Positions 1-10,175 of a stretch of DNA of 64,000 nt are shown in pieces. Position 1 is the first letter of the stretch; every line of letters starts with the position of its first letter. Source of the stretch: Streptomyces tardus (lineage in GTDB: Bacteria; Actinomycetota; Actinomycetes; Streptomycetales; Streptomycetaceae); the NCBI RefSeq assembly GCF_018101125.2, contig NZ_JAELVF020000004.1, positions 496,001 to 560,000 on the forward strand, given 5' to 3'. The notes below the pieces were generated by a model. It made no database searches. It had not been told where the DNA came from and saw only the letters and a program-made list of their open reading frames with translations. The translations under genes were made by a program, and so were the position numbers.

Positions 1-58
1 TGCCCGTGGCGGGGTAGAGCGTGTCGTTGACGCAGGTGATGAACAGTGCGACCCGCAT
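1..58 (-). CDS. lutA: LutA/YkgE-type (Fe-S)-binding protein, N-terminal fragment
   Basis: Only the first 19 residues are inside the window (MRVALFITCVNDTLYPATG); the frame runs off the left edge. This is the characteristic N terminus of the LutA/YkgE family, the two-CCG-domain Fe-S subunit that works with LutB and LutC in cytoplasmic L-lactate oxidation. An AGGAG sits five bases upstream of the ATG, supporting the start. The rest of the gene, including the cysteine motifs that would confirm the family, is not visible, and glycolate oxidase subunit GlcF-like relatives start similarly. Confidence 0.6.
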   Translation of the reverse strand, partial: MRVALFITCVNDTLYPATG

Positions 59-378
59 GGCCTCTCCTCTCCGTGCCCCGGCCGCCGCGCTCCGGTGCGG
101 TACGTGCGCCGCCCCGCTCGCGGCAGGGCTCCGGCAGCACCGCGGACGGGCGGCCGGGGCGGTGTGCGGCATCCTGCACAGTGCGTTCGGACTGGTGCGG
201 GCGCACCGCTCGTGCACGCCCGTACCGGCAGCCTGCCCCACCGCGCGCCGCTCACCGCCCCGGCGCACCGCTCGGGAGCACGGCTGGGGCGTACGGCTCG
301 GGAGCACGGCTCGCGGTTACGTCGTGCGTCGGCAGGACGGTGGAGCCGCCCTCGTCCGGAATGCGGCCGGGGCCGGTG
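59..378. other. intergenic region without a recognisable gene
   Basis: No frame here has a ribosome binding site and protein-like composition. Two copies of a 15-bp sequence (CTCGGGAGCACGGCT) lie 26 bp apart at 271-285 and 297-311. The region should hold the promoter of the leftward LutA-like gene, but no convincing -35/-10 pair was seen. Confidence 0.5.
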
Positions 379-930
379 TCAGGAGCGGGTCCACCGCCAG
401 GAGTCGCCGTTCTGCCGGCAGGTGATGCGGGTCCCGGAGGAGGTGGTGGTGCTGGCACCGTGGTCGCTGGTGCGGCAGAATTGGCCCGGGCTGTAACAGT
501 TGCCCGCGTTGGAGACCAGCGAGCAGCTCGCCGCTGCGCCGCCTCCCGTACCACCGCCCCCGCTCACGCTCCCGCCCGAGCCGCTGCCCGTACCGCCGCC
601 CGCGCCTGTGCCGGAGCCGCCCGGGGCGGAGGTGACCGTGACGGTCGGGCCCGGGGTCTTGACCGTTCTGGTCCTGGTGACTGTCGGCGCCGGATCGGGC
701 TCGACGGTCACCCGCTCGGTCGTGGTGGCCTCGACCGTCGCGGTGAGCGTCGGAGTCGGCTTGACGGAATCACCCAACGCCGTTGTGGAGTCCGGCTGTT
801 CACCGGCACTGCCCAGCAGGGCGCCGAACAGGAGGAGCCCGACCCCGCCGCCCCAGACCCGCTTGCGGCGGCGCAGCGGTCGCAGGTCCGGCGGACGGGG
901 AGGCGGACTCGGTCGGTTGTACGGGTTCAC
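379..930 (-). CDS. secreted or membrane-anchored protein with C-terminal cysteine module
   Basis: A 183-residue protein. The GTG start at 930 is preceded by AGGGAG four bases upstream, which is why it is preferred over longer frames. The order is a proline-rich cytoplasmic head, an RRRKR stretch and one hydrophobic segment (about residues 28-42), a Thr/Val/Pro-rich stalk, a Gly/Ser linker, and a C-terminal region of about 45 residues with four cysteines (CSLVSNAGNCYSPGQFC, later ITC). Similar short cysteine tails end many streptomycete exported proteins, so an extracytoplasmic disulphide-bonded module is inferred. No enzymatic motif is visible. It stands alone, reading leftward toward the LutA-like gene; the function is unknown. 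Confidence 0.75.
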   Translation of the reverse strand: MNPYNRPSPPPRPPDLRPLRRRKRVWGGGVGLLLFGALLGSAGEQPDSTTALGDSVKPTPTLTATVEATTTERVTVEPDPAPTVTRTRTVKTPGPTVTVTSAPGGSGTGAGGGTGSGSGGSVSGGGGTGGGAAASCSLVSNAGNCYSPGQFCRTSDHGASTTTSSGTRITCRQNGDSWRWTRS

Positions 931-1220
931 GGTGCTCCCTGGGTGGCTGAAGGCCCGGCCGCGCGCGGGAAGAGTGCGGCCGGGACCACTGGGACGCCGG
1001 GCCTTGGCGCGGCGTTGAGGAGGACGCCCCTGCCGCCGGCTGCCCCGGGGCGGGCGGGCACGGCGTCGCGTGGAGCGGTGCACAGAAGACATCCGGAGCC
1101 GCACGAAGGTTGTGCGCCCTCACCCGCGAGGACGACAGCCACCCGATCCCGTCCAACCCGGCGCTCCCCGAAGGGAGTTGGCCCCTCGCCACCCGCCGTG
1201 CTACTGCCGCCGCGCCTGCC

Positions 1221-3512
1221 TCAGCCGGGCCGCCCGCCCGCGCTCTCCGCCCCGGCCAGCCCATCGAGCCCCCGTGGCAGCCGGCCCGTGTGCAGCACTC
1301 CGAGGTGCTGGGTGGCGCGGGTGAGCGCGACATAGAGGTCGCTCAGCGCGTACGCGGCCGGTTCGACCACCAGCACCGAGTCGAACTCCAGCCCCTTGGC
1401 ACCGCGAGGCGTCAACAGCACCACCTCGCGGGTGAGATCGGGCCCCGCTGCGGAACCGGCGTCCGGCAGCTCGACGAGGAGCGCGGCGTGCAGCTCCTGC
1501 GGGGCGATCACCGCGGTCCGACCCCGGCCGCTCCTGCCGTGCGCCTCCTGTGCCACCGCACCGGCCAGTTCCCGCGCTCCCACCGACCGCGCCCACGGCC
1601 GCACGCCCGTCCAACGGACCGACTCCGGAGGTGTGAAGTCCGGGTCGTGCGCCCGCACCACGTCGGCCGCGACCTCCATGATCTCCGCCGGCGTACGGTA
1701 GTTCACCCGCAGCCGCACCCGTTCCCAGCGGTCGCCCACATGCGGACGCAGCGCACGCGCCCAGCTCCCGACTCCTGCCGGGGCGGCGGTCTGCGCCGGG
1801 TCTCCGACCAGCGTCATCGAGCGGGTCGGCACCCGCCTCATCAGCAGCCGCCACGCCATCGCGGACAGCTCCTGCGCCTCGTCGACAATGATGTGGCCGA
1901 ACGCCCAGGTCCGGTCTCCGGCCGCCCGCTCGGCCGCGCTGCGGTCGTCGGTCTCCTCCTGGCGCTCGGCCATCCGCTCGGCGTCGATGATGTCGTGCGC
2001 AGCCAGCGCCTCGGACTCCATGTCCTCGAACTCGTAGGACTGCGATCCGGCGGACACCTCCAACACGCCCTGCGCATAAGCGATTTCCTCCTGACGGCCG
2101 GCCTCCGCCCTGGCCCGCGCGGCGCTGTCGTCCTCGCCGAGCAGCTCGGCCGCCTCGTCCAGCAGCGGTACGTCCGCCTCCGTCCACGCACCGCCCTCGC
2201 GGCGGATCAGCCCCGCGGACTCCTCGTCCAGGTGCACCGGCTCCGCGAGATAGTCCGCGAGGAAGCGCTGCGGGGTGAGCCGCGGCCACAACTGCTCGAC
2301 GGCCTCGTGCACTTCGGGACTGGTCGCCACGTCCCGGCCGAGCTGGGCGATGTCGTCGGGGCCCAGCAGATTGTCCCCGCCGAGCGGGTCCGCGCCGATC
2401 CGCTCGACGAGCTGGGCGGTCAGCTCGTCGATGATCCGGAACGCGAAGACCGGACGGGCCAGGTTGTGCGGCAGGCGGCTCTCGCGTGCGTGGTGCCGCG
2501 CGTCCTCGGCGGTCTCGCGGTGCAGCAGGAGCGTGCCGTACTCCTCGTGATCGATCTCCCGCACCCGTTCGGGCACGGTCTGCCGTCCCCGCAACGCCTT
2601 CGCCAGCACGTCGGCCATCTCCGGGCGCCCCTTCACCTCCGCGGCAGCCGGACTGTCCGCACCGGTGGCCCTCACGCCGGGGAAGAGCTCGCCGGGAGTG
2701 GCCAGCAGCACCCCGGTCTCGCCGAGCGAGGGCAGCACCTCGCCGATGTAGTCGAGAAACGCCGGGTTGGGACCCACGATCAACACGGCACGTCGGGCGA
2801 GCAGTTCACGGTGCTCGTAGAGCAGGAACGCCGCCCGGTGCAGCGCCACCGCGGTCTTTCCGGTGCCGGGCCCGCCCTCCACCACCATGACCCCTCGGGG
2901 GGACGCGCGGATGATCCGGTCCTGCTCCGCCTGGATGGTGCGCACGATGTCGTGCATCCGACCGGTGCGCGCCGCGTCCAGCGCGGCGAGCAGCACCGCG
3001 TCGGCGTCCCTGCTCTCGTGCCCTGTACGGGTCGGGTCGTTGAGGTCCATCAGCTCGTCGTGCAGCGCGGTGACAGTACGCCCCTCGGTCGTCAGATGCC
3101 TTCTGCGCCGCAGTCCCATCGGGGAATGGCCCGTCGCGAGATAAAAGGGACGTGCCGCCTCGGCCCGCCAGTCGATCAGCATCGGCGCGCCTGCCAGCTC
3201 TTCGTACTGAATTCCCATCCGCCCGATGTGATGTGTTCGACCGTCCCCGAAATCCAGTCGGCCAAAGCACAGTCCGTTCTCCGCGGCATTGATCGCCGCG
3301 AGTCGACGGGACCGCTCCGAGACGGCGACCTCCCGCTCCAACTTGGCCTGGTAGGCGTTCCCGACCTGCGCAAGCGCCCCGTGTGCGGACTCCTGAGCCC
3401 GCACCCTGAGCGCGTCGAGACGCTCGTGGAGCGCAGCGACGAATTGCTGCTCCCGCTCGATTTCACTGTTTGACAATTCCGCTCCCGCCGAGTTATTCTG
3501 ACTCCGGTGCAT
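1221..3512 (-). CDS. helD: HelD-type UvrD-like ATPase (RNA polymerase recycling factor)
   Basis: A 763-residue superfamily 1 helicase-like protein of the HelD family, whose members enter stalled RNA polymerase and release it from nucleic acid; some streptomycete members (HelR) protect against rifamycins. Visible are the N-terminal coiled-coil region (about 1-80), Walker A GGPGTGKTAVALH (about 215-228), Walker B IIVDEAQELS, motif VGDPAQTAAPAG, and C-terminal motifs TPRGAKGLEFDSVLVVEP and YVALTRATQHL. The ATG at 3512 fits the promoter at 3549-3579, but has a poor ribosome binding site; a TTG at 3476 has GGGAG five bases upstream and would give a 751-residue protein. No rifamycin-associated inverted element was seen upstream, so a HelR role is not supported. 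Confidence 0.88.
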   Translation of the reverse strand: MHRSQNNSAGAELSNSEIEREQQFVAALHERLDALRVRAQESAHGALAQVGNAYQAKLEREVAVSERSRRLAAINAAENGLCFGRLDFGDGRTHHIGRMGIQYEELAGAPMLIDWRAEAARPFYLATGHSPMGLRRRRHLTTEGRTVTALHDELMDLNDPTRTGHESRDADAVLLAALDAARTGRMHDIVRTIQAEQDRIIRASPRGVMVVEGGPGTGKTAVALHRAAFLLYEHRELLARRAVLIVGPNPAFLDYIGEVLPSLGETGVLLATPGELFPGVRATGADSPAAAEVKGRPEMADVLAKALRGRQTVPERVREIDHEEYGTLLLHRETAEDARHHARESRLPHNLARPVFAFRIIDELTAQLVERIGADPLGGDNLLGPDDIAQLGRDVATSPEVHEAVEQLWPRLTPQRFLADYLAEPVHLDEESAGLIRREGGAWTEADVPLLDEAAELLGEDDSAARARAEAGRQEEIAYAQGVLEVSAGSQSYEFEDMESEALAAHDIIDAERMAERQEETDDRSAAERAAGDRTWAFGHIIVDEAQELSAMAWRLLMRRVPTRSMTLVGDPAQTAAPAGVGSWARALRPHVGDRWERVRLRVNYRTPAEIMEVAADVVRAHDPDFTPPESVRWTGVRPWARSVGARELAGAVAQEAHGRSGRGRTAVIAPQELHAALLVELPDAGSAAGPDLTREVVLLTPRGAKGLEFDSVLVVEPAAYALSDLYVALTRATQHLGVLHTGRLPRGLDGLAGAESAGGRPG
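3470..3499 (+). promoter_or_regulatory. possible plus-strand promoter overlapping the helD 5' end
   Basis: A perfect TTGACA at 3470-3475 is followed 18 bp later by TATTCT (3494-3499; four of six consensus positions). It points away from helD, and no protein gene follows; an intrinsic terminator ends 103 bp further on. The same TTGACA lies beside the alternative TTG start of helD, so chance cannot be excluded. Confidence 0.35.
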
Positions 3513-3548
3513 TAGTGGTGTGTCCAGTCGCAGGCAAATGAAGCATTG

Positions 3549-3579
3549 AATATACGCTGAGTCGAGTCGTGGATGTCAA
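3549..3579 (-). promoter_or_regulatory. probable helD promoter
   Basis: On the minus strand a perfect -35 TTGACA (3574-3579) and a -10 TATATT (3549-3554) are separated by 19 bp. Transcription would begin near 3541, about 30 nt before the ATG at 3512. The spacing is one or two bases longer than ideal. The stretch is clearly more AT-rich than its surroundings. Confidence 0.55.
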
Positions 3580-3602
3580 ATTCATCCGCGACTTTTCTTT
3601 TT
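3566..3602 (+). terminator. intrinsic terminator with T-tract
   Basis: A 10-bp stem with one G-U pair (3566-3575 with 3583-3592), a 7-nt loop, then TTTTCTTTTT. This is a textbook Rho-independent terminator for the plus strand. It is unusual because no plus-strand gene lies upstream, and it overlaps the helD -35 element. Confidence 0.65.
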
Positions 3603-4012
3603 GCCGGCTCCCTGGCGTTACGCGCTGCTCGTCGTGTGCACGACTCGCAGCCCCCGTGTGCGTCGAATGTGCGCCGGGAGCGCCGACTCGCACGTGAGCG
3701 GCGGGACGGCGAGATGTGGCGGGGCGGCGGCCGGGCGGAGTGCGCCCGCCCCCGGTGGGCGGCTCGGCGCCCCGGCGATGATCTCGACGACGGTTCACGC
3801 CGCTTGGCGGGTGTTCCGCGATTCCGGGCACTCGCCTCCGGCCTCGAGAAGGCGTTGCCCGGCCCGCGTTCGGCCCTTGATCGTTCTGCTCCCCGCGCCC
3901 CCGTCCGCACCGCTGTTGAGCGGCGCCGACGGTGTGCGCGAGCACCCCCCGAAGTGAGGTATTGTTCTCGTGCACGGCCGGTCAGGGGCAGAGCCCAGGG
4001 TCGGAGCAGCAC
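3603..4012. other. intergenic region upstream of the tRNA
   Basis: No coding frame here is convincing. A TATTGT at 3960-3965 could serve as a -10 for the tRNA, but no matching -35 was found. Confidence 0.4.
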
Positions 4013-4086
<74 letters not shown>

Positions 4087-4092
4087 CGGTGC

Positions 4093-4140
4093 GAGAAGGC
4101 GCCCTGATCAGGGAGAAATCCCTGATCAGGGCGCCTTCTC
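4093..4140 (+). terminator. perfect 22-bp hairpin after tRNA-Pro
   Basis: Arms 4093-4114 and 4119-4140 are exact reverse complements closed by a GAAA tetraloop (GNRA type). It starts six bases after the tRNA 3' end and is followed by TCATTCTCTG, with only short T runs. The likely role is terminating or stabilising the 3' end of the tRNA transcript. It contains the smaller palindrome CCTGATCAGG in each arm. Confidence 0.85.
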
Positions 4141-4865
4141 TCATTCTCTGACTTCCCCGTCAACCTGACGACCCATCAGGAACTGAACGGTCGACTGGTG
4201 GCGGAGCAGGCCGTTGGGGAGCTTCAGGCCTGCTGACCGCGGGATCGTCCCCTGGGGAGCTATTTGTACTCCTGGAGCTATCTGTACTCCTGGACCGCGG
4301 CCCGTCGACCTGCCACAACCGCCCTGAGGTGCGCGACGGCGGCACGCCGTCCGCGGCAGCGCAGGGAGTACGCGGCGGTCATGCCCGACGCGCCGCGCGA
4401 TCTCGCCGGCCAGACTGCCGGTGCGGGTGAAGGGAGAGAACTCAGCCGCTGAGGCGGCGGTGCCACCGATGTCTGGGCCCTCTGCGAGGTGCATCTCCAG
4501 CACGCGTACACCGAGCCGCCACGCGCGGCCCGCTCCCGTCGAAGTGGGCCGAGGTATCCAGGAAGTCCGAGTCGACCGAGGCGCTGAAGAGCATGCGCGA
4601 CGACAGGTCCAACCCAGGAGCCGCTCGCGGCCCAGGCAACTCCCTCAGCCAACTCGGCAACTCCAGCCGAGCCGAATCGACAGGAGGATCTCCGGAACGA
4701 TGGTCCGTACGGCGACCACCGCTTCCCGGGCAGCCTCAGCCTCCTGCCCGTTTCCTGCCAGGCTCCGTAACACTTGCCGGATCTGGCCACGGTCGGGCAA
4801 GCCCCCGTGATGGCCGTAGTCCACAGAAGCGAACGGCGCCACCATCTGTCCATTCCCTGGCTCAT
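4141..4865 (-). pseudogene. decayed minus-strand coding remnant, family not recognised
   Basis: No single frame is open across this stretch, but protein-like segments appear on the minus strand in successive frames: FASVDYGHHGGLPDRGQIR (about 4790-4850), SSRMLFSASVDSDFLDTSAH (about 4540-4600), and EGPDIGGTAASAAEFSPFTR (about 4430-4490). They read in order, which suggests one gene broken by frameshifts. The product was not recognised. A short duplicated sequence (GGAGCTAT(T/C)TGTACTCCTGG) lies at 4255-4290. Confidence 0.35.
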
Positions 4866-5815
4866 CGCCGGGGTCGTCGTCCTGACGTCGCTTCACACTG
4901 TTTACGACAGCTGCTTCACGAGCCTGCTGCCCCGCGTGGTCGGGGATAAAGATCTCGGGTTCGCGAACGCCCGGCTGAGCGCATCCCAGTCCACCGCCGG
5001 TATCGCGGGCCCTTCCGGCGGGCAGCGTCCGGGTTTCCGTGGGAGCGGACTGGCCCTTCCTCCTGAAAGCCGTCACTTTCGGCGCTTCGGCGGCGTGGGC
5101 GGCATCTCTCCCACCCGACACCGGCCGCCGACGGAACGGGCGGGGCCGCGCCGCCGTGGCGTCGTACGTCCGCCGGTGCGGGACGTTGCCGAAGGCATAC
5201 GACGCGTGCGGCGGCAGTGGCTGCTGTCCCTGCTGTTGGGCAGCGCGGCGGTGAGCAATCTGTGCAACGGCCTCAACTGCAGCGCTGTACCGCTGTTGGC
5301 CACCCACACCCTCGGCCGTAAGTATGAGCAGTTCCGGCGCGATCATCGCCGCGAACGCGGCCAGCACGGTCGGGGGCAACTTGCTGGCCGGAGGCATTGG
5401 CATGGCGATCCTCGGATTTGGCGCCGGCATGTGGAACTTCCCGTCGCCGACGCTGATGATGCGCTCCGCGCCCGAGGATGTGATCGGCCGCACCAGTGCA
5501 CCGTTCCGTACCGTCTCGGTGGCCGGGATGCCTCTGGGCGCGGCACTCGGAAAGCTTGTGGCCACCCTCGGTGGGTTGAGGGCCAGCGCACTGGTGGCTG
5601 GTGCGCTGTCCGCCGTCCTGTTCGTCAACTTCAGCTACCACGCCCGTCGACTGTCGCGACTCGAAGTCGAGTTGGAGTCGTCGCAACCGAGCCGGAGAGG
5701 GACTAGCGCATGCGTACGCTGTCTGTCGACACCACGCACATGTCCCACTTGCGACTACCTGGAACAGGCTCCTCCGCCTGTCGGGCGTGGAGTTGGGCGC
5801 AGGCGGTGCGCATAA
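4840..5815 (+). pseudogene. MFS efflux transporter pseudogene
   Basis: Fragments of a major facilitator superfamily exporter of the macrolide-efflux type read in order but switch frame at least three times. They are a first segment with VYDSCFTSLLPRVVG and ANARLSASQSTAGIAGPS (about 4880-5020), ADWPFLLKAVTFGASAAW (about 5042-5100), VAEGIRRVRRQWLLSLLLGS (about 5185-5250), and a last segment GIGMAILGFGAGMWNFPSP to VSVAGMPLGAALGKLVATLG (5324-5580). The hydrophobic segments and the order match the central and C-terminal parts of such transporters. The N-terminal third is missing or unrecognisable, so the gene is inactive. Confidence 0.75.
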
Positions 5816-5946
5816 GCGAATCATCGCCCGCGCCACGGGCAGGCACCCCGCCGACGAACCGGGACCAAGATCACAGGCAGGCCAAGATCGCCCAGCTGAT
5901 CAACTTCCCGTCCTCACCCGGATGTAAGGTCCGTACGTGCCCATCG

Positions 5947-5978
5947 GGGGAGGGGCGCCGCGACAAGCATCCCTCCCC
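5947..5978 (+). terminator. possible terminator hairpin
   Basis: GGGGAGGG (5947-5954) pairs with CCCTCCCC (5971-5978) across a 16-nt loop, followed by TCTTCG. It sits between the dead transporter and the small secreted-protein gene. The long loop and absence of a T-tract make this a modest call. The rest of 5816-6019 shows no gene. Confidence 0.3.
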
Positions 5979-6019
5979 TCTTCGCAACGTGTATCTGGGA
6001 GCCGAAGGTGCGTCAACTT

Positions 6020-6448
6020 GTGAAGCGTCAAGCGCTGAATTGAATAGGCTTGGTCGTCGCATCCGCGGCCGTGCTACCACTTGTGATAGCAACGCCGGCT
6101 TACGCGGGTAACAAGACCACTTACATCAGCGGGGCTTATCCGACCTTCGAATCGAGTCGCTGGACCGATGACGGTGGCACCGGCCCCACCAAGATCCATT
6201 TCACGACGTGCTCGGCGACAATACAGTTTGCGAATACGGACGTCGTTACGTGGGAAGACATTACGGCGTGGCCAGATGATCACAGGGGTAGGAAGACGTT
6301 CTCCGCCTGCGCTACGAATGGCTCCACGTCTAAGGGTGATTGGCCTGCTATGAGCAGCGGAGATGACGTGTACTTCGAGATTGACGCCATCAACGGGTAT
6401 ACGAGCAACGTCCAACTATACGTGGACACAGTAAAGATCGCGTACTGA
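6020..6448 (+). pseudogene. small secreted protein with an in-frame TGA in its signal peptide
   Basis: From GTG 6020 the frame reads VKRQALN, then TGA (6041-6043), then IGLVVASAAVLPLVIATPAYA and a mature part of about 112 residues with two cysteines ending in DTVKIAY. Together the two pieces form a normal Sec signal peptide (basic N-region, hydrophobic core, AYA cleavage site), so the TGA looks like a single C-to-T change of a CGA arginine codon. Translation could instead start at TTG 6050, leaving a signal peptide with no basic residues and no clear ribosome binding site. AAGG lies upstream of GTG 6020. Its composition is less GC-rich than its neighbours. It directly precedes an ABC exporter operon; no function is recognised. 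Confidence 0.6.
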
Positions 6449-6460
6449 TCTACGACCACC

Positions 6461-6500
6461 AAGGTGGCGGGGCGGCCATCGGTCGATGCCCCGCCGCCTT
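6461..6500 (+). terminator. hairpin terminator after the secreted-protein gene
   Basis: A 13-bp stem with one G-U pair (6461-6473 with 6488-6500) and a 14-nt loop begins 12 bases after the stop codon. There is no T-tract, as is usual in high-GC actinobacteria. It would partly separate the secreted-protein gene from the ABC operon. Confidence 0.6.
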
Positions 6501-6521
6501 TGCGCGCAGCAAGGAATTCCC

Positions 6522-7274
6522 ATGCCGATTCGGTTCTCCTCCTGTTCGTTCGGATACCGACGACGCCAACGTGTCATCGAGAACCTGGACTGCGAACTGC
6601 CACCCGGGCGAACGGTCTTCCTCGGACCGAACGGAGCCGGAAAGAGCACCGTTCTGGGCCTCGCCTCGTCGGCGTTGTCTCCCCGAACCGGGCAGGTAGT
6701 CTACGAAGGCTTGTCCAGTACCGGGCGCGATGTAGGCGCCTATCGCCGGCGTATCGCCTGGATGCCGCAGCAGCTTGCGCGCGTGCCCGGGCTGACCGCC
6801 CGCGATCAGGTCGCGTACGCTGGCTGGCTGAAGGGCATGTCGAAGTCGGATGCCTGGCACCAGTCGCTGCGGGCTCTGCGGCAGGTGGAGTTGGGTGATC
6901 GGGCCGAGGACAAGATCGATCAGCTGTCAGGTGGGCAGCAGCGTCGCGTGGGTGTCGCACAGGCTCTGGTGCATGGCGCGGAAGTGCTCCTACTCGATGA
7001 ACCGACGGCTGGAATGGACCCCCGGCAACGACAGGTTTTCCTTGATGTCCTGGGAAACCTCTCGAGTTTCGTGCACGTCGTACTGGCCACCCATGACACC
7101 GCCGATCTCGACACAGTGTATGACAACGTTCTGGTGTTGCTTGACGGGAAGTTGGTCTTCTCTGGCTCGGTCGAGGGGTTCCTGGCACACGCGGAAGCGG
7201 GGGCAGTGCCAGGCAGGCGAGCGGATTCGGCGTACCACTTGCTCACCGAACGGAGCCACGCGTGCGTTTCCTGA
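6522..7274 (+). CDS. ABC transporter ATP-binding protein
   Basis: A 250-residue nucleotide-binding subunit. The ATG at 6522 has AAGGA six bases upstream and gives MPIRFSSCSFGY. Walker A is GPNGAGKST (about 36-44), the Q-loop region is AWMPQQL, the ABC signature is LSGGQQRR, Walker B is VLLLDEPTAGMDP, and the H-loop is LATHD. The short single-domain architecture is that of ABC-2-type export ATPases, which power efflux of peptides, drugs or lipids across the cytoplasmic membrane. The gene overlaps the next by 13 bp and forms an operon with two membrane proteins. The upstream small secreted-protein gene suggests a linked export or sensing role, but that link is inference. Confidence 0.9.
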   Translation: MPIRFSSCSFGYRRRQRVIENLDCELPPGRTVFLGPNGAGKSTVLGLASSALSPRTGQVVYEGLSSTGRDVGAYRRRIAWMPQQLARVPGLTARDQVAYAGWLKGMSKSDAWHQSLRALRQVELGDRAEDKIDQLSGGQQRRVGVAQALVHGAEVLLLDEPTAGMDPRQRQVFLDVLGNLSSFVHVVLATHDTADLDTVYDNVLVLLDGKLVFSGSVEGFLAHAEAGAVPGRRADSAYHLLTERSHACVS

Positions 7275-8521
7275 ACTCCCTGCGTCGCTCGCCCGTACGT
7301 TGGCTTGGAGTACCCGCTCTCGCGATGGGGTACTTCTATGCGGCCCAAACGACCCAGAGTGCGACCGGGTTCGGAGGAGACGCGGTAGCCGGGGGCGCCC
7401 GAGCGGCTGTCATTGTCAGCGGTGTGCTTGCCGCGCTTGCGGCGTGGGAGGCAGGGAGGTGCCGGGCGGGCCTGCTGTGGAGTCTGGCGCCCGCTCGTGG
7501 CCGGTACCGGATCGCGTTCGACGCTCTTCGGCCGGTTCTCGTCCTTGCCCTGATCGTCGACGTCGTCGCTTTTCTGAGTGCTGCTCTAATGGTGAACGCG
7601 TCGCCACGAGCCGCGGACCTACCGGTGATCGGGTTCGCGGTGGCCCTGCAGACGGCACTGATCATCCTCGGTTTCGGGGTGGGATGTGTCCTCTCGCGGA
7701 TCATCGCCGTCCCGACGGTACTGATCGGTGTCACGCTCTGGCTGGCGATCCCCGCCACCTTGGAGACTCCCTGGGTCCGCTATCTGACTGGTGTACTGAG
7801 TGCGGCACTCACCTTCACCGACGACTTGGCACCGAGCGTGCTCCTGGCACCGCTGGTTCTCGCGGCAGGCGTGGTGGCCGCCGTGCTGCTCGGCTCGGTG
7901 CCGGTGCGCAGCCGTCTGCTGCGCGCAGGTGTCGCGCTGTGCTGTGTGGTCGCGGGTGCCGTGCCCGCGCAGGCCATGGTCGCCGATGCCGGGTACGAGG
8001 CTCCTACCGTCCCGCGGACCGGTGCGCAGACCTGCGACGAGGGAGCCCCGCGCATCTGCGTACCGGAGGAGTTCGCGGACGCGCTACCGCAGTTGCGCGC
8101 GGCGGCGAACAAGGCTCTACCGAACCTCGCCGAAGCCGGCGTCGACGTGCCCGGCGCGGTCGCGTACGTCTCCCAGGACGCCCGCTTGGAGCCGGGTGAT
8201 TGGCGGATGCACCTCGAGCGGCCGGTAAGCGACCTGCGAGCGTTCAACGCGGTGGCCACAGCTGTGATTCCAGCCTTCAGGGAATGCCCCGACCTCCCGG
8301 ACGACCACGGTCACCCGTCGCCCGGGCCGCTTGCCGCGTGGTTGCGGGTGTCAGCGGGGATGGACGAACGGGACGCGTCCGGCGTCGGTACCGTCCGCGC
8401 CCGCCGCGAGGCCGAACGCGTCCGTGGCCTCGACCGCGTAGAGCAGCGACGCTGGTTCGACGTACAGCTACGGGCGCTGCGTAGCTGCGACCCGAAGGCG
8501 CACGCGGAGGCACTGCCGTGA
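7262..8521 (+). CDS. ABC transporter permease with large extracytoplasmic C-terminal domain
   Basis: A 419-residue protein starting at GTG 7262 inside the end of the ATPase gene, which implies translational coupling. Residues about 10-240 contain six or seven hydrophobic segments. The remainder, after the signal-like AVPAQAM, is a soluble region of about 170 residues with cysteine pairs (TCDEGAPRICVPEE; later ECPDLPDD and RSCDP), predicted to lie outside the membrane. No transporter with known substrate could be named. The architecture resembles actinobacterial ABC permeases that carry an uncharacterised C-terminal domain. Its operon position makes it the main permease partner of the ATPase. 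Confidence 0.75.
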   Translation: MRFLNSLRRSPVRWLGVPALAMGYFYAAQTTQSATGFGGDAVAGGARAAVIVSGVLAALAAWEAGRCRAGLLWSLAPARGRYRIAFDALRPVLVLALIVDVVAFLSAALMVNASPRAADLPVIGFAVALQTALIILGFGVGCVLSRIIAVPTVLIGVTLWLAIPATLETPWVRYLTGVLSAALTFTDDLAPSVLLAPLVLAAGVVAAVLLGSVPVRSRLLRAGVALCCVVAGAVPAQAMVADAGYEAPTVPRTGAQTCDEGAPRICVPEEFADALPQLRAAANKALPNLAEAGVDVPGAVAYVSQDARLEPGDWRMHLERPVSDLRAFNAVATAVIPAFRECPDLPDDHGHPSPGPLAAWLRVSAGMDERDASGVGTVRARREAERVRGLDRVEQRRWFDVQLRALRSCDPKAHAEALP

Positions 8522-10105: not shown

Positions 10106-10150
10106 GGAGATAGTCTCCGTTTCGCGGCTGACGATACGGAGATGGTCTCC
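10106..10150. promoter_or_regulatory. duplicated TetR-type operator
   Basis: Two palindromic sites, GGAGATAGTCTCC (10106-10118) and GGAGATGGTCTCC (10138-10150), differ at one central base, share flanking GATA(A/C) on the left, and start 32 bp apart (three helical turns). The second ends 25 bp before the ATG of the tetR gene. Autoregulation by that TetR protein is the obvious reading. Confidence 0.7.
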
Positions 10151-10175
10151 GCGCTGTCAACGAGAGGTGCACGGC

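Follow-up and report, generated by a model that had tools for sequence, protein, structure and literature searches.

A conserved promoter and terminator opposite helD define a predicted antisense unit in Streptomyces

The pR and pL promoters of phage 186 lie face to face and interfere with one another through opposing polymerases, and we know of no terminator inside the opposing promoter in that system. In Streptomyces coelicolor, both strands of the convergent scbA-scbR pair are protein-coding. At that locus, interference and cis-antisense RNA have been proposed to act as a switch (PMC3134472). The locus described here, the upstream region of helD within a 64 kb stretch of Streptomyces tardus DNA (hereafter the window), resembles scbA-scbR in having facing, overlapping transcripts in a Streptomyces, but its antisense unit would be a short, predicted non-coding RNA with its own terminator inside the sense promoter. 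Promoter interference would be shared with phage 186 pR/pL, the terminator inside the opposing promoter being found on the helD side.

Other likenesses are more partial. The cis-antisense RNAs and cutoRNAs treated in passages of a comparative Streptomyces RNA-seq study also lie opposite a gene (PMC3765725), but cutoRNAs come from overlapping convergent genes, and we rejected this identity because the predicted overlap at helD is at 5′ ends rather than at the 3′ ends of convergent genes. The same passages note that antisense transcription is in general not conserved (PMC3765725), against which the helD antisense promoter, conserved across the genus, stands out. The rifamycin-associated element (RAE) of helR genes, as outlined in parts of two reports (PMC10719064, PMC8655204), is likewise a palindrome, and it covers the −35 in the promoter of a helD-family gene, whereas the helD hairpin has a different sequence, variable arms, a T-tract and a facing promoter. 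Ms1/scr3559 and 6S RNA, as presented in excerpts of the literature, are non-coding RNAs tied to RNA polymerase biology (PMC9130861, PMC11077062); the helD antisense RNA, by contrast, is a predicted molecule of ~97 nt, linked in cis to helD, that has a variable body and no Rfam match. A literature search of the main text of articles found no printed description of this RNA.

Bacterial antisense promoters are often dismissed as noise, few being conserved. The one opposite helD is conserved genus-wide so tightly that both the TTG start and the rare serine codon after it are fixed, and the gene concerned encodes a protein that clears stalled RNA polymerase. The locus offers a clean case in which to test regulation by opposing polymerases, and a way to approach the control of helD genes that are not under an RAE.

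The helD gene, its start codon and its promoter

The minus-strand gene at 1221-3476 is, by its sequence, a class II HelD, an RNA-polymerase-recycling ATPase. Its product matched the NCBIfam models HelR_2 (712.7 bits, cut-off 1100), HelR (416.3, cut-off 750) and HelD_MYCSM, each below the curated cut-off, and no family score placed it above a curated cut-off in the HelR group. The open reading frame list begins the gene at ATG 3512, while relatives use the codon equivalent to TTG 3476 (3476-3474), preceded by a GGAG ribosome-binding site; in the window this site reads GGGAG (3482-3486, minus strand) and lies within the spacer of the plus-strand promoter described below, where the CTCC columns are 99-100% conserved. 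With the conserved start at TTG 3476, the plus-strand −35 covers the start codon and the second codon.

Counts in this study refer to 124 loci that gave 122 distinct sequences, which are related to one another. They comprise 37 loci from searches for relatives and 87 of 90 loci from matches to R1, a model of the whole element, three of which (L108, L112 and L120) repeated L024, L023 and L028 and were dropped; 87 of the 124 were therefore picked up by a model into which the promoter was already built. The 37 include the seven Streptomyces loci of a set of 46, the only members of that set used in the counts. Of the 122 sequences, 121 start with TTG and one with GTG, the latter differing only at the start-codon base that lies outside the antisense −35. 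Codon 2 is TCA in all 122, although elsewhere in 37 helD genes TCA accounts for 8 of 930 serine codons; this rare codon is fixed because the antisense −35 is the reverse complement of the TTG-TCA-A start.

The promoter of helD itself consists in the window of TTGACA (3579-3574, minus strand), a spacer of 19 and TATATT (3554-3549), giving a leader of ~69 nt if transcription starts, as assumed, ~7 nt after the −10. The −35 falls within the terminator hairpin of the opposite strand, where it takes up part of the inner stem and the loop. TATATT recurs in 117 of 122 sequences, and a TTG-type −35 at a spacer of 18-19, in the terminator loop, in most of them, so that on sequence grounds this interleaved promoter is itself conserved.

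Gene order in relatives suggests that helD is the orthologue of SCO5439 rather than of SCO2952. In one relative (L193) we take the order, with gene names assigned from the sequences, to be pfkA, a two-component pair, helD and glg/trehalose genes. SCO5439 and SVEN_5092 appear among the HelDs of their species in the relevant part of a published list (PMC8655204), and numbering and gene order together indicate that these two genes and the helD of the window are probably mutually orthologous.

A tRNA-Pro(GGG) gene (4013-4087) adjoins helD in the window and is followed by a long inverted repeat (4088-4141). No tRNA lies near helD in the two relatives examined (L193 and L194), and a second copy of the 3′ end of the tRNA-Pro was not found within the 64 kb. 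To its right lie pieces of a transporter-like gene in more than one frame (4774-5710), probably a decayed gene.

A facing promoter and terminator

On the plus strand, the antisense −35 TTGACA (3470-3475) is the reverse complement of the TGTCAA of the helD start, and the −10 TATTCT (3494-3499) follows at a spacer of 18. This promoter was the sole hit in a scan of positions 1-8000 (0.5 expected), and the 64 kb window contains two TTGACA-17/18-TAnnnT sites where 0.01 would be expected, the second, with a spacer of 18, lying at 10131-10160 on the minus strand. The 6.16 Mb genome holds 4 TTGACA-18-TAnnnT sites and its reversed control 2, so that one such site, taken by itself, is modest evidence. 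In S. coelicolor the consensus is TANNNT for the −10 and NTGACC for the −35 (PMC4895711).

All 122 distinct sequences have TTGACA as the antisense −35. A spacer of 18 separates it from the −10 in 120 of them and one of 17 in the other two, and the −10, which occurs as 18 different hexamers, conforms to TAnnnT throughout, also at the shorter spacing. At spacer 18 the T, A and T columns are each 98% conserved, the exceptions per column being two sequences, as many as have a spacer of 17, while the three inner bases reach 57-66%. TTGACA and TAnnnT at promoter spacing, separated by a spacer free in sequence and held to 17 or 18, is, as far as sequence can tell, the signature of a promoter.

Downstream, a hairpin at 3565-3593 (stem 3565-3575/3583-3593) is followed by the T-rich tail TTTCTTTTT at 3594-3602. 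A terminator scan recovered this hairpin with 12 pairs, but terminator-like sites as a class were no more frequent in positions 1-8000 than in shuffles (2 found, 3.2 expected), and a hairpin with a T-rich tail alone is therefore weak evidence. The stem, however, covaries: in 36 aligned sequences (alignment A1, which omits L018 for its long insertion, although L018 is included in the 122), 90.7% of cells were paired and 58 were changed on both sides, compared with 19.3 in shuffles and at most 10 in slid versions. A second alignment, A2, combines 90 true matches with 33 weak ones in which the palindromic terminator was matched on the reverse strand, and no counts were taken from it.

A T-tract of at least 5 T in 10 follows the stem in the antisense direction in 117 of 122 sequences and in the helD direction in 85; the antisense tract is the stronger in 74, the helD tract in 15 and the two are equal in 33, with counts of 9 and 2, respectively, in the window. 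One locus (L014) has lost the T-tract. The structure thus has the form of an intrinsic terminator, a G+C-rich stem and then a T-tract. A terminator serving only an upstream gene was rejected since, in 64 loci with enough flank, the antisense T-tract was present in 26 of 27 with a co-directional upstream gene and in 35 of 37 without one. Wobble changes in the terminator stem favour neither strand (44 G-T and 55 A-C), whereas those in the hairpin at the 5′ end tend towards the strand of the helD mRNA (120 versus 69), and the leader hairpin may therefore matter in both RNAs.

Placing the 5′ end ~7 nt after the −10, promoter and terminator would delimit a plus-strand RNA of ~97 nt (3506-3602); the fold of 3506-3604 has z = −2.9, a stability equalled by 1 of 200 shuffles. 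With both 5′ ends placed in this way, the RNA and the helD leader would overlap at 3506-3542, that is by 37 nt, and by a median of ~40 nt across the 122 sequences. A dedicated promoter opposite the gene, the mark of a cis-antisense RNA, is present as sequence in all 122, and the plus-strand unit is accordingly predicted to lie face to face with, and antisense to, the helD leader. Since the ribosome-binding site of helD sits in the antisense promoter spacer, and the predicted RNA would begin upstream of it, simple masking of that site is unlikely.

Conservation within and beyond the genus

Relatives of helD were present in 58 of 61 genomes searched, and their upstream regions align to one shared architecture, which in the helD direction consists of an A-rich segment, stem, TTG loop, stem, T-rich segment, GCGTATATT, leader hairpin, ribosome-binding site and AATTGTCAA. 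A script that sought the TTGTCAA start failed at 0 of the 37 loci. With a threshold of E ≤ 0.01, R1 matched 226 of 246 Streptomyces genomes, and the sequences of 90 of these 226, taken from the better-scoring among the matches listed, were read. In the S. tardus genome the single match is at helD. Twenty genomes gave no match, of which 12 have no close helD orthologue and 8 have one; six of these eight orthologues still carry TTGACA-18-TAnnnT at the helD start, missed by R1. Those six are divergent (53-57% identity) and start with TTG, ATG or GTG, yet keep TGTCAA. The remaining two, L197 and L204, have no recognisable element: the N-terminal part of helD is unmatched in L197, and the promoter is absent in L204. 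The promoter and terminator at helD are thus conserved, at the sequence level, in most Streptomyces.

These comparisons bear on a first-pass annotation of the same DNA, which had proposed a promoter-terminator pair delimiting a short plus-strand transcript beside helD. That pair stands, its coordinates being read directly and its conservation at other helD loci borne out by the 226 of 246 genomes, the 122 of 122 promoters and the covarying stem, as does the overlap of the terminator with the helD −35. The mutual exclusion or interference it proposed would be the natural reading where two promoters face each other and one unit runs across the other's promoter, as at helD. The promoter had been rated only a partial match, a caution that its conservation in every distinct sequence removes. 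The statement that no gene is encoded between promoter and terminator holds for the plus strand; on the minus strand helD starts at TTG 3476, which puts the −35 on the helD start. Nor would the transcript be an orphan, the predicted RNA being antisense to the helD leader.

Outside the genus, R1 gave 12 weak matches in 26 loci of other families of the order (best E 0.009); it reaches these families poorly, and the loci were therefore read by eye and by script. Eleven loci of these families have a TTGTCAA start, and all eleven keep TTGACA, with the hexamer 18 nt further on reading CAGAAT in 6, TAGATT in 2 and CAGACT, TAACGT and TAGAAC in 1 each. Where this hexamer is CAGA(A/C)T or TAGATT, the leader differs, but a 5′ hairpin and a G+C-rich stem are again present, and the tail is mostly T-rich. 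Another three loci of the order (L089, L090 and L092) lack TTGTCAA; each contains a TTGACA-17-TAnnnT, counted without regard to where the start lies. Five loci of other orders (L095-L099) showed neither TTGTCAA nor a TTGACA/TAnnnT promoter. Upstream of helD in L044 and L054 (Kribbella) are a TTG start, a leader hairpin and, at a similar distance on the opposite strand, a TAAAAT with a poor −35.

Proposed regulation in cis and its alternatives

From these observations, we regard the plus-strand promoter and terminator as very probably functional parts, and we favour, with less assurance, a role exerted mainly in cis on helD. A housekeeping-type promoter opposite helD would start transcription inside the helD leader, and the antisense transcription would cross the leader and the helD promoter before stopping at a terminator whose loop is the helD −35. 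Two polymerases could not use both units at once, and the 5′ ends of the two RNAs would be able to pair over ~40 nt. Polymerases that set out from the antisense promoter would cross and occlude the helD promoter and collide with polymerases leaving it, and the repression of helD in cis would possibly be aided by pairing of the two leader hairpins. Transcription of the unit, repression of helD and any coupling of helD expression to polymerase traffic are what we infer. In a more speculative extension, which we hold to be rather doubtful, the antisense unit would be a sensor of polymerase traffic: a polymerase jammed between the facing promoters would block helD, and HelD, by clearing the jam, would set its own expression. 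With a terminator lying in the helD −35 and the antisense −35 in the start codon, the two programmes would then exclude each other.

It is unlikely, in our estimation, that the plus-strand promoter goes unused, its words being a protein-binding site together with helD leader and translation signals and the hairpin being a leftover or serving the helD direction. The lean of the 5′ hairpin wobbles towards the helD strand and the frequency of helD-direction T-tracts would fit such an explanation, and something unusual may bind there, as in a WhiA ChIP study the sole peak of the untagged control lies upstream of sven5092 (PMC3781837), a probable orthologue. If the two genes are indeed orthologous, that peak hints at unusual occupancy of the facing promoters by protein or polymerase. 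However, the TTGACA/TAnnnT pair at 17/18 with a free spacer is what a promoter looks like, the plus-direction T-tract is stronger and more constant whether or not a co-directional gene lies upstream, and the helD direction has no T-tract in the window.

A trans-acting small RNA that targets other mRNAs or RNA polymerase, for which the place beside helD would be secondary, is less probable still, although the unit would release an independent transcript of 97 nt that has a hairpin at its 5′ end and ends in a terminator of its own, and although RNAs that bind RNA polymerase exist in Streptomyces according to excerpts of one study (PMC11077062). The body of the predicted RNA is variable, and most of the blocks that are conserved correspond to promoter or ribosome-binding signals on one strand or the other; the element is moreover tied to helD, given the single match in its own genome and the 12 of 20 genomes without a match that also lack a close orthologue. 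Rfam covariance models gave no match other than tRNA-Pro in the window and the scanned loci, and known families including Ms1 and 6S were rejected accordingly; scr2952 is counted among the Rfam families in the passage concerned (PMC8388888). The passages on RNA polymerase RIP-seq in S. coelicolor name other RNAs, scr3559 and scr0792, and the main text of that article contains no word beginning SCO5 (PMC11077062). The suggestion in the first-pass annotation of an RNA acting on RNA polymerase thus finds no support in these results.

Least credible of all, and close to negligible, is that the hairpin is an RAE making the gene rifampicin-inducible as in helR genes. The mycobacterial palindrome, in the part of the report that describes it, also lies over the −35 of a helD promoter, the same place as the hairpin (PMC10719064), but the arms of the helD hairpin vary between species, unlike an operator. 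A search with the RAE-like palindrome GGGGnCTTGCCGCAAGnCCCC found no match at the locus within 3 mismatches, and its 10 matches in the window are at chance level. Palindromes of this kind (GGGGnCTTGCCGCAAGnCCCC or close to it) do occur before helD-family genes at L057, L058, L061 and L062, with a variant at L060, their bearers belonging to Cellulosimicrobium, Micropruina, Avipropionibacterium and Microbacterium. We take the palindrome upstream of the L057, L058, L061 and L062 genes to be the RAE.
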